DNA of 47,792 nt from an uncultured Bacteroidia bacterium. GTDB lineage: Bacteria; Bacteroidota; Bacteroidia; Bacteroidales; Prolixibacteraceae. The DNA lies in assembly GCA_903834845.1 (NCBI GenBank), contig CAILKW010000558.1, forward strand, positions 1 to 47,792, in the 5' to 3' direction. Under the pieces are notes generated by a model, which searched no databases, was not told the origin of the DNA, and worked only from the letters and a program-made list of their open reading frames with translations. Each line of letters starts with the position of its first letter. Within the stretch, counting starts at the first letter, position 1. Both the position numbers and the translations under genes were made by a program. Shown here piece after piece: positions 27,524 through 33,084 of this stretch.

Positions 27524-27730
27524 ATGGAATCAACATCTTTGTATATTAAAATTTCAACACTTCCTCAACCAATTCATAATGAGATTGTTGATTATATGGA
27601 TTTTTTGATTCACAAACATAAACACCTTAAGGAAAGTATTCATCCAAAGGCTGGTTGTATGAAGGGATTTTTTAAAATGAGTCCTGATTTTAATGAACCA
27701 TTGGAGGATTTTAAAGAATACATGAAATGA
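27524..27730 (+). CDS. DUF2281/VapB-like antitoxin
   Basis: LYIKISTLPQPIHNEIVDYMDFLIHKHK; overlaps the PIN gene by ATGA. Confidence 0.8.
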   Translation: MESTSLYIKISTLPQPIHNEIVDYMDFLIHKHKHLKESIHPKAGCMKGFFKMSPDFNEPLEDFKEYMK

Positions 27731-28119
27731 GGATTCTTATTGATACACAAGCTTTTATTTGGTTTGTTGAAAATGACAAGCAACTTCCATTAAAGGTTAA
27801 AGCCGAACTTGAAGATTCTCATAATACCATCATTGTTAGTATCGCTACACTTTGGGAATTGACAATAAAAATCACACTTGGGAAACTTCGTTTAAGCGGC
27901 AATATTGAAGAGATGATTGATAAAGTTTACTCTAATGGATTTGAAATACTTCCAATACTCCCTTTGCATATAATGAAACTAAGTACTTTGGAATATTTTC
28001 ATAGAGACCCATTTGATAGAATAATAATCTCACAAGGTTTAAGTGAGAATTTGGCAATCGTAAGTTCAGATAAAGTGTTTGATGAATACGGCATAAATCG
28101 GAAATGGAATAATTTATAA
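27727..28119 (+). CDS. PIN-domain toxin (VapC-like ribonuclease)
   Basis: MRILIDTQAFIWFVEND, SIATLWELTIKITLGKL, HRDPFDRIIISQ PIN acidic motifs. Confidence 0.88.
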   Translation: MRILIDTQAFIWFVENDKQLPLKVKAELEDSHNTIIVSIATLWELTIKITLGKLRLSGNIEEMIDKVYSNGFEILPILPLHIMKLSTLEYFHRDPFDRIIISQGLSENLAIVSSDKVFDEYGINRKWNNL

Positions 28120-29257: not shown

Positions 29258-31216
29258 ATGAGCAAAGACGATCTAAAACTACTTATAGCACAGGCACGTT
29301 TAGACGAAGCTGTTGATGAATTATTGGAGCTTATCAGTAAATATTCAGCAACATCAAAACCGGATAAATTTGTAGGAAAGTTGAGCGAAGTACTTATCAG
29401 TAATTCAGGTAAACTGCGTGGTTTACAGCACGATAAAATGCTTGGGATAATTGATCGTCAAAACGAACTTATTACCATTGCTCAGGTACAACAAGCTATA
29501 CTGCATTTACTTGACGAGCTTCCTGCTCATTTCTGGAATGTTCAATCGCCACACACTGCAACCACAATAACAGGCAACGGCAATGAACAAACCGAAACCG
29601 ATTTTTGGCAAACTGCCACTAATGCTAATTCGTTGTCTTTGTTTCACGAATACCTTAAAAAATACCCCAAAGGTAAATTTGCCTATGAAGCAAAACAATT
29701 TATCGCAGTTTTAAAGCAGCAACCTCCGTTTAGAACAATTGATAGACGAAAAAAACTAATCTATCTTCTTTCGCCTATAGTGTTAATAATCATTGTTTTA
29801 ATGGTTTATTTCTCAACCAAAAACCCTGACAAACAGCAAATTTCGGTTCTACCAAATCCAGGTAGAGGTGATACAGTAAAAGTTGAAACTTCTAAAATAT
29901 CACAACCAAATGCTTACCAAACTGCAATAAATGAGAAAATAAAAAAAGATAGCATTGCAAAGTCTGAAAATGAAGATAAAATTTTGTATCAAAAAACAAT
30001 AACCCAAAATACAACAGAGGCTTACAATATTTACCTTAAAAAATACCCTGACGGATTATACTCGAAACAGGCAAAACAAAAGATTGCAGATTTGGAAAAT
30101 GAAAAACTGCAAAAACAGATTGCTGCCGACAAAGCAGAAAAGGAACGAAAGGATAGTATTGACTTGATTGACAGAAAGGATGAGTATTTGTATAAAAATA
30201 CTTTATTGCAAAATACAGAAGAAGCCTTCAAAGAATACCTTAAATTTTTTCCAAGTGGCAAATATTCAAAAGATGCAAATCAAAAAATTGCAAATTTGGA
30301 AATTGAAAAACGGCAAAAACAGATTGCTGCCGACAATGCAGAAAAGGAACGAAAAGATAGTATTGCCTTGATTGACAAAAAGGATGAGGATTTTTATAAA
30401 AATGCTTTAGCACAAAATAGGAGAGAAACTTTGAAAGATTACCTTAAATCTTTTCCAAGTGGCAAATATTCAAAAGCTGCAAAACAAAAAATTGCAGATT
30501 ATGGAGAGCAGCTTGTGGCCGACAATGCTGCAAAAGAAGCAGGAAATCCGGAAATGGTTTTTGTAAAAGGTGGAGAATTTATAATGGGTGATGACAATGG
30601 CTATTCTTGGGAAGAACCTGCACATAAAGTTGTTGTTTCAGATTTTTACATAGGTAAATACGAAGTTACGCAAAAGCAATGGACTGATATAATGGGAAGT
30701 AATCCTTCGTATTTTAAAGGTTGTGGTAATTGTCCTGTAGAACAGGTGAGTTGGAATGATATACAGGAATTTATTAAAAAACTGAACCAAAAAATAGGCA
30801 AAACTTATCGGTTACCTACTGAGGCAGAATGGGAATACGCAGCAGGTGGCGGAGCCAATAACCGTACAAAATGGGCTGGCACAAATATTGAAAGTGAATT
30901 AAAAAATTATGCCTGGTATAGCAGCAATAGTGGTTCAAAAACACATCCTGTCGGTTCAACAGCAAAAGCAAATTCTTTCGGTATTTACGATATGAGCGGC
31001 AATGTTTGGGAATGGTGCAACGATTGGTACGGAGCGGATTATTATAAAATTAGCCCGTTGAATAATCCACAAGGGCCTTCTTCCGGGTCTGGCCGTGTTT
31101 TGCGTGGCGGCTCGTGGCACGGCAACTCCGTCGGCAGCCGTATGGCTTACCGCTACCACATCACGCCAGGCAACGATGGGTACTTCATAGGGTTCCGGCT
31201 GTTGCTGGCCTTGTAG
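29258..31216 (+). CDS. EAD-like domain - TM - repeat - FGE/SUMF1 (C-type lectin fold) protein; candidate DGR target
   Basis: N-term MSKDDLKLLIAQARLDEAVDELLELISKY...ITIAQVQQAILHLLDEL (EAD11-like); TM LIYLLSPIVLIIIVLMVYF; EYLKxxPxGKYxxxAxQ repeats; FGE motifs FIMGDDNGYSWEEPAHKVVVSDFYIGKYEVTQKQW, YRLPTEAEWEYAAGG, MSGNVWEWCNDWY, RVLRGGSW..IGFRLL. Confidence 0.88.
   Translation: MSKDDLKLLIAQARLDEAVDELLELISKYSATSKPDKFVGKLSEVLISNSGKLRGLQHDKMLGIIDRQNELITIAQVQQAILHLLDELPAHFWNVQSPHTATTITGNGNEQTETDFWQTATNANSLSLFHEYLKKYPKGKFAYEAKQFIAVLKQQPPFRTIDRRKKLIYLLSPIVLIIIVLMVYFSTKNPDKQQISVLPNPGRGDTVKVETSKISQPNAYQTAINEKIKKDSIAKSENEDKILYQKTITQNTTEAYNIYLKKYPDGLYSKQAKQKIADLENEKLQKQIAADKAEKERKDSIDLIDRKDEYLYKNTLLQNTEEAFKEYLKFFPSGKYSKDANQKIANLEIEKRQKQIAADNAEKERKDSIALIDKKDEDFYKNALAQNRRETLKDYLKSFPSGKYSKAAKQKIADYGEQLVADNAAKEAGNPEMVFVKGGEFIMGDDNGYSWEEPAHKVVVSDFYIGKYEVTQKQWTDIMGSNPSYFKGCGNCPVEQVSWNDIQEFIKKLNQKIGKTYRLPTEAEWEYAAGGGANNRTKWAGTNIESELKNYAWYSSNSGSKTHPVGSTAKANSFGIYDMSGNVWEWCNDWYGADYYKISPLNNPQGPSSGSGRVLRGGSWHGNSVGSRMAYRYHITPGNDGYFIGFRLLLAL
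29986..30510 (+). repeat. Internal coding tandem repeat (~204-nt period) in the FGE protein
   Basis: Successive YLK(K/F)xPxGKYSKxAxQKIAxLExEKxQKQIAADxAEKERKDSIxLIDxKDE units, near-identical DNA at ~30110 and ~30316. Confidence 0.75.
31103..31216 (+). repeat. Candidate DGR variable repeat (VR) at the 3' end of the FGE gene
   Basis: ~64% GC (hand count over 31103-31186); from TGG onward: CAC GGC AAC TCC GTC GGC AGC CGT ATG GCT TAC CGC TAC CAC ATC ACG CCA GGC AAC GAT GGG TAC TTC, then invariant ATAGGGTTCCGGCTGTTGCTGGCC. Confidence 0.75.
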
Positions 31217-31411
31217 TTCACCTCTGAGCAAGGAAAGGCAAGGTAACCAGAAAAAAAATGGGAGTGTGGTGAGTGGGCTAACCGCTACGAACATTTTTTT
31301 GGAGCAGGAAAAACAATACCGCCTTTAGTCGGTCGAATTTTTTGGGGAAAACAGACCATTAGAAATAATAATGGCACGGATAAGCACATAGAGTTTATAT
31401 CGTAAAGAAGC

Positions 31412-31925
31412 TAAAATAAGGTTTTTAAATCACAACAAACCTTATTTCCCTTTTGATCTTAACCTTAGTAACCAACGGGTTACCATAAATCCCAACCTTA
31501 TTACCTTATTTTTGATTTGGTCAAACCCATTGTTGGCGTAAAGAAATTGAAATAAGGTAATAAGGTTAAAATACATATTGATTAACTATGTAGCTAACGT
31601 TAGGGAAACAAAAAATAAGGTTTTTAAAATCACAACATACCTTATTTTCATTTTAATCTTAACCTTAGTAACCAATGCGTTACCATAAATCCCCAACCTT
31701 ATTACCTTATTTTTGATTTGGTGAAACCCATTGTTGGCATAAAGAAATTGAAATAAGGTAAATAAGGTTAAAATACATATTGATTAACTATACTACTAAG
31801 GTTAGGGAAACAAAAAATAAGGTTTTTAAAATCAAGACAAACCTTATTTTCCTTTTGATTTTAACCTTAGTAACCAATGCGTTACCATATATCCCCAACC
31901 TTATTACCTTATTTTTGATTTGGTA
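31412..31925. repeat. Tandem repeat array, ~199-202-bp period, 2.5 copies, rich in inverted repeats
   Basis: Aligned ataaggtttt starts at 31416, 31615 and 31817; third copy ends at tttttgatttggt. Confidence 0.9.
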
Positions 31926-32033
31926 GAAGTCAGTAAAACAAATTAAGCACTGCTAAGTGCGACTGCTTATCCCTTTCGGTCAAGTTATTCTTGAAAACAT
32001 TATAAAGGAAGCAATTTTACGTTTGAACGACTT

Positions 32034-32051
32034 CCCCTTTCGAAAAAGGGG
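32034..32051. repeat. CCCCTTT...AAAGGGG palindromic motif followed by a G-rich run
   Basis: CCCCTTTcgaaAAAGGGG then ggcaggggggattt. Confidence 0.5.
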
Positions 32052-32167
32052 GGCAGGGGGGATTTGATGCAATTCCTTAATATGAATGCGTTACGAATAT
32101 AAATGAATTCCAATACATAGGGAACTTGAATGAAATAGATAGGCAGTATATATCAATATCTTAGACA

Positions 32168-32415
32168 ATGTTCAACCCGCTCTGGGGTTGCCGTTGGGTT
32201 TTATTCATATACCCCCGGTTCCGCAAGCTACACAGGGGGTTATTCACGTTTAACCACTCCGTGGTTGTGTTTCTGTTACATATTATTGCACAGAGTATTT
32301 TTTTCCGGGTGGCTAACTATCATGTTTCTACGATTTTGGAATCAAACTTCAAAATATGCAACTCCGGTAACAATCACGAATAGTGATAGTCTCACTCGAA
32401 GTGAGGCTATCACTA
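32168..32415. repeat. REP-like hairpin-rich noncoding segment
   Basis: CAACCCgctctGGGGTTG, TACCCCC...GGGGGTTA, AACCACtccGTGGTT and a 16-bp-stem hairpin TAGTGATAGTCTCACT-cga-AGTGAGGCTATCACTA (32381-32415). Confidence 0.55.
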
Positions 32416-32517
32416 ACTGACTTTTGGAGGAGGCCATATAGCCAACAGTAATAAAAGAAGGTTCAAGATGTTTGTAATTCTTATAAATTTAAAGTAGTTT
32501 TAAAAAAAAAACAGGTC

Positions 32518-32721: not shown

Positions 32722-33084
32722 GAATAATAGTTGATGCAAATATTGTATTCAGTGCAATCTTAAACACAAATAGTAAGATTGCTGATCTGCTGTTAAATTC
32801 AAAAGAGATTTTTGAATTCATAGAAAATTGAAAATATGGTTACTAAGCCCATTTTATTTTTTTCAGGTATCCACATTCCTGAATTTTATTGGGTTAAAGC
32901 TGAACAATTAGTTATTAATATTGATCCAAAAGATACACCTTATGTTGCCTTTTCAATGTTCCTTAAAACTAAAATATGGTCTGGAGATAAGGTACTTAGG
33001 AACGGATTAATCCTAAATGGATTTAAAAAAGTGATAAACACCGAAGAGCTATTTGAGTTGAGAGAATTAAAAAGGAAAAGTTGA
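32718..33084 (+). pseudogene. Broken PIN-domain toxin with internal deletion
   Basis: N-part 32718-32831 MRIIVDANIVFSAILNTNSKIADLLLNSKEIFEFIEN*; C-part 32836-33084 ...WVKAEQLVINIDPKDTPYVAFSMFLKTKIWSGDKVLRNGLILNGFKKVINTEEL; central PIN region missing. Confidence 0.75.

Follow-up and report, generated by a model that had tools for sequence, protein, structure and literature searches.

What is the tandem array of about 200-bp units that occupies positions 31413-31924 of contig CAILKW010000558.1 (assembly GCA_903834845.1), a stretch of 47,792 nucleotides (hereafter the window) from an uncultured Bacteroidales bacterium of the family Prolixibacteraceae? The original prediction for this locus left three identities side by side: a structured RNA, an iteron-type recombination or replication element, and a passively mobilised palindromic element. 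The last of these is the one borne out, since the array belongs to a dispersed family of inverted pairs, built from modules that serve as terminal repeats for a clade of Y1 transposases. We consider it likely that a non-autonomous repeat, similar to TIRtrons and REPINs (hairpin-forming doublets of repetitive extragenic palindromes, REPs), was amplified in tandem at this site, and that it belongs to a Y1 transposase of the subclass 1.2 type.

The array itself is real. Tandem Repeats Finder (TRF) reports a period of 202 bp with 2.6 copies, 92% matches and 1% indels, and the units start 200 and 202 bp apart. They are 91-93% identical to one another with scattered differences, and no open reading frame (ORF) of at least 80 amino acids covers them, much as had been predicted. 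Within the window, the AAATAAGGT/ACCTTATTT words are confined to the array. The ~200-bp period also holds, but it is not the true repeat unit. The elementary repeat is a 73-nt module, and each ~202-bp unit is an inverted pair of modules, M and M'. Five modules lie in the window in the order + - + - +, i.e. as a chain M-M'-M-M'-M (E = 5e-18 to 2e-8), according to model R2 (with A2), which was built solely from the sequences of 27 modules of the window's genome, with no tnpA locus in its training. Each module consists of AACCTTATT, ~15 nt, ACCTTAGTA, ~25 nt, and ACCTTATT(T)ACCTTATT; these words are nearly invariant, the spacers between them are free, and outside the words the divergence among copies is strong. 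In the chain, 40 nt separate facing inner ends and ~16 nt separate facing outer ends, and the third unit is truncated because the last M has no M' partner. The best outside unit that was compared is 79% identical to the array units, which are thus closer to each other than to it, and local duplication is the most likely way in which the array expanded.

A genome-wide search for further copies revealed that the array is not unique. The assembly of the window's genome (8.2 Mb, 851 contigs) contains 51 blastn matches to the array and 73 modules on 33 contigs by model matches at E <= 0.01. Coding sequence makes up 78%, yet 30 of the 31 module clusters on the contigs fetched fall outside ORFs. Inverted orientation prevails among neighbouring modules less than 350 nt apart (29 of 34 pairs, binomial p 2e-5). 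Gaps of 34-41 nt between facing inner ends and of 7-17 nt between facing outer ends are preferred, and alternating chains also occur on contigs C79 and C471. Since the 73 modules are nearly all intergenic and form inverted pairs, they constitute a dispersed family. The orientation and distance of neighbouring genes vary from copy to copy. On contigs C57 and C521, two loci (L044, 9141-9358; L049, 8610-8828) hold pairs whose outer ends face each other across a 72-nt spacer of similar appearance at both, possibly a second composite unit.

The link to a transposase comes from related genomes. On contig C9 of one relative (G038), an intact gene for a 147-aa Y1 transposase is flanked by inverted modules; at loci of its clade, M stops just before the ATG of tnpA and M' starts at about the stop codon. 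A protein-only search of 393 genomes of the order placed 21 genomes (G038 included) in this clade at 52-73% identity to the G038 protein, and the clade of IS200-like Y1 (HUH) transposases is monophyletic with support of 100/100. Model R2 matches 18 of the 21 clade loci, and modules are present by pattern at the remaining three (L080, L083, L090); in 92.8 kb from 19 sources that hold other Y1 genes, the model has no match. Across the 393 genomes, modules were found in 18/21 genomes with clade tnpA versus 51/372 of the others (Fisher p 3e-12).

A second, wider sample of 80 loci, drawn from genome contigs by protein alignment alone, gave a similar picture. At least two canonical words occur in an end at 69 of these loci, and a significant inverted repeat joins both ends at 59, one of which (L247) consists of a stretch of N and is to be discounted. 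Word 2 (canonical CCTTA, variants mostly CCTCA) is of one kind at both ends in all 52 cases, a count uncorrected for shared ancestry: 38 are canonical at both ends, 14 variant at both, and none mixed. Word 3 varies in the same direction less strictly, ends being of a ACCTTATT type or a ACCTCATT type, and the tetranucleotide GTAG is found in 101 of 125 copies of word 2. The branch is large: one scan of species genomes gave 247 relatives, with records including Bacteroidota, Ignavibacteria and Calditrichota. Clade TnpA loci from named species include those of Gaoshiqia sediminis, Mangrovibacterium marinum and Terrimonas pollutisoli (L218, L231, L228). Other genera of the window genome's own family often carry an intact clade gene, and the words stand on both sides at the six loci examined there. 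The gene is mostly present in one or two copies per genome, and a high module count can go with an intact gene or with none (78 in G052, 64 in G434, 82 in G013). Phage and plasmid collections contain no match to the array and no clade protein; a single 42% relative lies on a Bernardetia plasmid, and none in phages. A literature search on the module words returned no relevant paper.

The clade protein scores above the cut-offs of IS200 TnpA domain models (PF01797, Pfam Y1_Tnp; NF033573, NCBIfam IS200/IS605 TnpA) and far below that of the NCBI REP-transposase model. Its predicted fold (predicted local distance difference test score, pLDDT, 84) matches TnpA of ISDra2 and IS608 (E about 3e-8); a weaker match of lower rank is to the REP-bound REP-associated tyrosine transposase (RAYT) 4er8 (4.5e-5). 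The motif Y---Q--HH is carried by every clade protein of sufficient length, and a WQ motif is also present. The HUH motif is DHVH in G038 and mostly EHVH or EHIH in other members rather than DH[IV]H; given this departure, with the HUH core kept, we claim the signature of subclass 1.2 and not formal membership.

These observations suggest the following scenario. In relatives, two inverted copies of the 73-nt terminal module bound a Y1 tnpA gene, and these would be recognised by the clade enzyme in single-stranded form, perhaps with pairing of M and M' as a precondition. The enzyme would also move M-spacer-M' units that have lost tnpA, as in REPINs and TIRtrons, and the chain in the window may then have formed by slippage or unequal recombination between units. 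Movement by a Y1 enzyme is inferred here from association, co-evolution and family chemistry. How the ends are read is a more tentative matter. Single modules have no fold of their own (mean z +0.35 on the M strand and +0.51 on the complement versus shuffles, n=67 modules), and the M-M' pair as single-stranded DNA is a long imperfect hairpin that folds better than shuffles (z -2.8 and -4.4). One possibility, to which we give somewhat less than even weight, is that this HUH clade reads three or four repeated linear words together with GTAG, or needs both ends paired across the gene, and co-evolves with the words. If so, end recognition would do without a local hairpin, unlike the hairpin-based mode of IS608, ISDra2 and the E. 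coli RAYT. Y1 transposases recognise hairpins as a rule, and hairpin-less candidate substrates offer a test ground for that rule.

Several observations weigh against mobilisation by a Y1 enzyme. The single modules lack a hairpin of the kind used by IS200/IS605 enzymes. No intact clade tnpA was found in the assembly of the window's genome, and 51 module-bearing genomes in the sample have no intact cognate transposase. A joined-arm search in G340 and G052 found no clean pre-insertion site for the M-M' pair; short "empty" copies from that search were considered as such sites and rejected, being read as internal deletions because they still carry an outer-word remnant. In G052, where near-identical copies (up to 99%) lie at different places, copies of the main subfamily end in GGCATTTTTCAT inverted repeats and form a miniature inverted-repeat transposable element (MITE) of ~250 bp (loci L143-L156) with the module pair at its centre, and 8-bp target duplications (at least 7/8 bases alike) accompany 8 of 13 copies versus 4 of 156 swapped pairs. 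Such duplications together with terminal inverted repeats (TIRs) are a hallmark of DDE-type transposition, and therefore not all of these units were spread by a Y1 enzyme; this subfamily bears the mark of a DDE element that has the module pair as its passenger or interior.

It could be argued on these grounds that a DDE transposase mobilises the inverted pairs in general, as the inside of ordinary MITEs, and that they came to be associated with Y1 genes through hitchhiking or through shared insertion sites. Module pairs in G340 (L124-L129) are likewise enclosed by a TIR, a different one (TTGAATATCCG..ACCAGT), and at another G340 locus (L184) the same TIR encloses a second module type, as found beside a paralogous tnpA (L132). 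However, the outer arms change between genomes while the module stays constant, and the modules sit at fixed positions relative to the start and stop codons of clade tnpA and match at both ends. Inspection by eye of the edges of the window's array (31396-31415 and 31921-31945), which may be eroded, showed neither TIR arms nor a target duplication. We therefore regard this explanation as improbable for the family as a whole. The two module types within the G340 repeat match that genome's two tnpA paralogues. In a second G052 subfamily, the left homology boundary falls at the outer word of M, a single case that fits Y1 action.

The window's genome holds remnants of a cognate enzyme, and its modules read as a mobile-DNA family that outlived the decay of that enzyme. 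As predicted, there is no transposase in the array; relatives do have the cognate gene, and contigs C148 and C256 each hold a C-terminal fossil of a clade transposase directly beside a module, matching clade proteins at E 8e-7 and 4e-5. The genome's four complete Y1 genes were considered as drivers and rejected, since no module lies near any of them; palindromes of another kind flank at least one. One complete Y1 gene of this genome (L062, G000:C133, 1500-2900) is flanked by CCATGGACGTTGCCCATGG and TCATCAGGCTGAAAGCCTG arrays, and other Y1 genes with Y---Q--HH in relatives (L098, L099) have GCGTAGC hairpins on their flanks. Association with repeats may be general for this Y1 subclass in Bacteroidota.

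Considerably weaker is the proposal that the array is a functional intergenic element (a structured RNA, a terminator or a protein-binding array) that tnpA happens to adjoin. It would suit the intergenic position and the folding of the M-M' pair, but nothing in the window matches an Rfam family above threshold, with chance matches below threshold only, and no terminator-like or promoter-like site was found inside the array. Moreover, neighbouring genes differ in orientation and distance between copies, and copies diverge strongly outside the words. The structured RNA named in the original prediction has no support, given the Rfam result and the folding of single modules, which is no better than that of shuffles. 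Its iteron option is not supported either, as the 73 copies are dispersed in intergenic space and no link to replication genes was seen. Integron attC sites, CRISPR (clustered regularly interspaced short palindromic repeats, rightly dismissed from the start) and iterons were dropped from the anatomy only, because spacing and inversion fit terminal repeats. An artefact of short-read assembly is barely credible: the 851-contig assembly has 6% contamination and several copies at contig ends, but the array units differ by 7-9% and therefore are not a duplicated read block, and C79 and C471 carry comparable chains of alternating modules.

Table 1. Parts of the array, in window coordinates
Feature	Position	Strand	Basis
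Whole tandem array, ~2.6 units of 202 bp	31413..31924	.	TRF
Left array edge: outer word (AAATAAGGT) from a truncated M'	31413..31423	-	sequence
Module M, copy 1 (AACCTTATT..ACCTTAGTA..ACCTTATTACCTTATT)	31438..31510	+	model R2, E 2.5e-17
40-nt spacer, inner end to inner end; position of tnpA in relatives	31511..31550	.	
Module M', copy 1, second word degenerate	31551..31622	-	model R2, E 1.8e-8
Module M, copy 2	31639..31711	+	model R2, E 5.4e-17
40-nt spacer, inner end to inner end	31712..31751	.	
Module M', copy 2	31752..31824	-	model R2, E 1e-13
Module M, copy 3, without an M' partner	31840..31913	+	model R2, E 5.1e-18

Upstream of the array (Table 1), an ORF at 29258-31216 encodes EAD11 and FGE-sulfatase domains. 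It had been put forward as the putative target of a diversity-generating retroelement (DGR), with the array directly downstream, which is a fair description of its position. No template-repeat-like copy of its 3' end was found in the window, and no search for a DGR reverse transcriptase was made. This ORF contains a 204-bp tandem repeat of its own (2.1 copies, 30071-30505), and a PIN-domain gene (27727-28119) and a short PIN_2 fragment (32836-33084) lie on either side of it. Other short palindromes cluster after the array at 31925-32480, e.g. TAGTGATAGTCTCACTCGAAGTGAGGCTATCACTA at 32381-32415 and GTTCAACCCGCTC..GGGGTTGCC near 32170, and palindromes of these kinds reappear next to modules on further contigs of the window's genome.

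Among known systems, IS200/IS605 elements such as IS608 and ISDra2 share the fold and the HUH/Y chemistry with the clade, but clade ends have no subterminal hairpin and, as a rule, one or two diverged copies are present per genome. IS200/IS605 elements insert without target duplication and cut at a fixed tetranucleotide; in the genomes studied here no clean empty site was found, and the larger G052 units carry 8-bp duplications. DDE MITEs account for a TIR with target duplication around pairs in G052 only, and not at the window array edges. REPs, REPINs and bacterial interspersed mosaic elements (BIMEs) with their RAYTs work in a similar way: extragenic inverted pairs, mosaic clusters, a single-copy Y1 gene between inverted copies, and GTAG, here common in word 2. 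Like classical REPs, the modules are extragenic and dispersed (73 copies, 30/31 clusters intergenic). However, the module is 73 nt long instead of 20-40 nt, is made of repeated words in the same direction where a REP is a palindrome, and has no hairpin of its own at whose foot GTAG could lie. Since size and hairpin do not agree with a REP, we call it a TIRtron-like variant of a subclass 1.2-type enzyme. TnpA-Y1 subclass 1.2 is described with no REPs reported and generally no terminal IS200 structure (PMC6006769). The clade resembles it in its Y---Q--HH and WQ motifs, its length of ~147 aa, its low copy number and its occurrence in Bacteroidetes, and differs in having terminal modules with dispersed relatives and an HUH motif that is mostly EHVH/EHIH. 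Because such enzymes were reported in 2018 to have neither REPs nor IS-type ends, the DNA on which they act was open, and a large branch of subclass 1.2-type enzymes now gains a defined candidate substrate, with natural variants changed at both ends. In addition, the module family accounts for a group of repeats that lie between genes in Bacteroidales genomes. The local explanation, tandem mobile repeats, is ordinary; the wider result is a candidate substrate for an orphan Y1 branch. The nearest described kind is the TIRtron with its TIRYT, presented in PMC3733652 as RAYT-like Y1 genes with long TIRs unrelated to REPs, whose TIR copies occur as dimers or clusters. Both features recur here, as a Y1 gene between long non-REP TIRs in relatives (only fossils remain in the window's genome) and as module copies dispersed as dimers or clusters. 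The three-word module design and a Bacteroidales example are not described in the sections of PMC3733652 consulted, and in the present family an entire protein clade is defined by the TIR, with words that change together at both ends.
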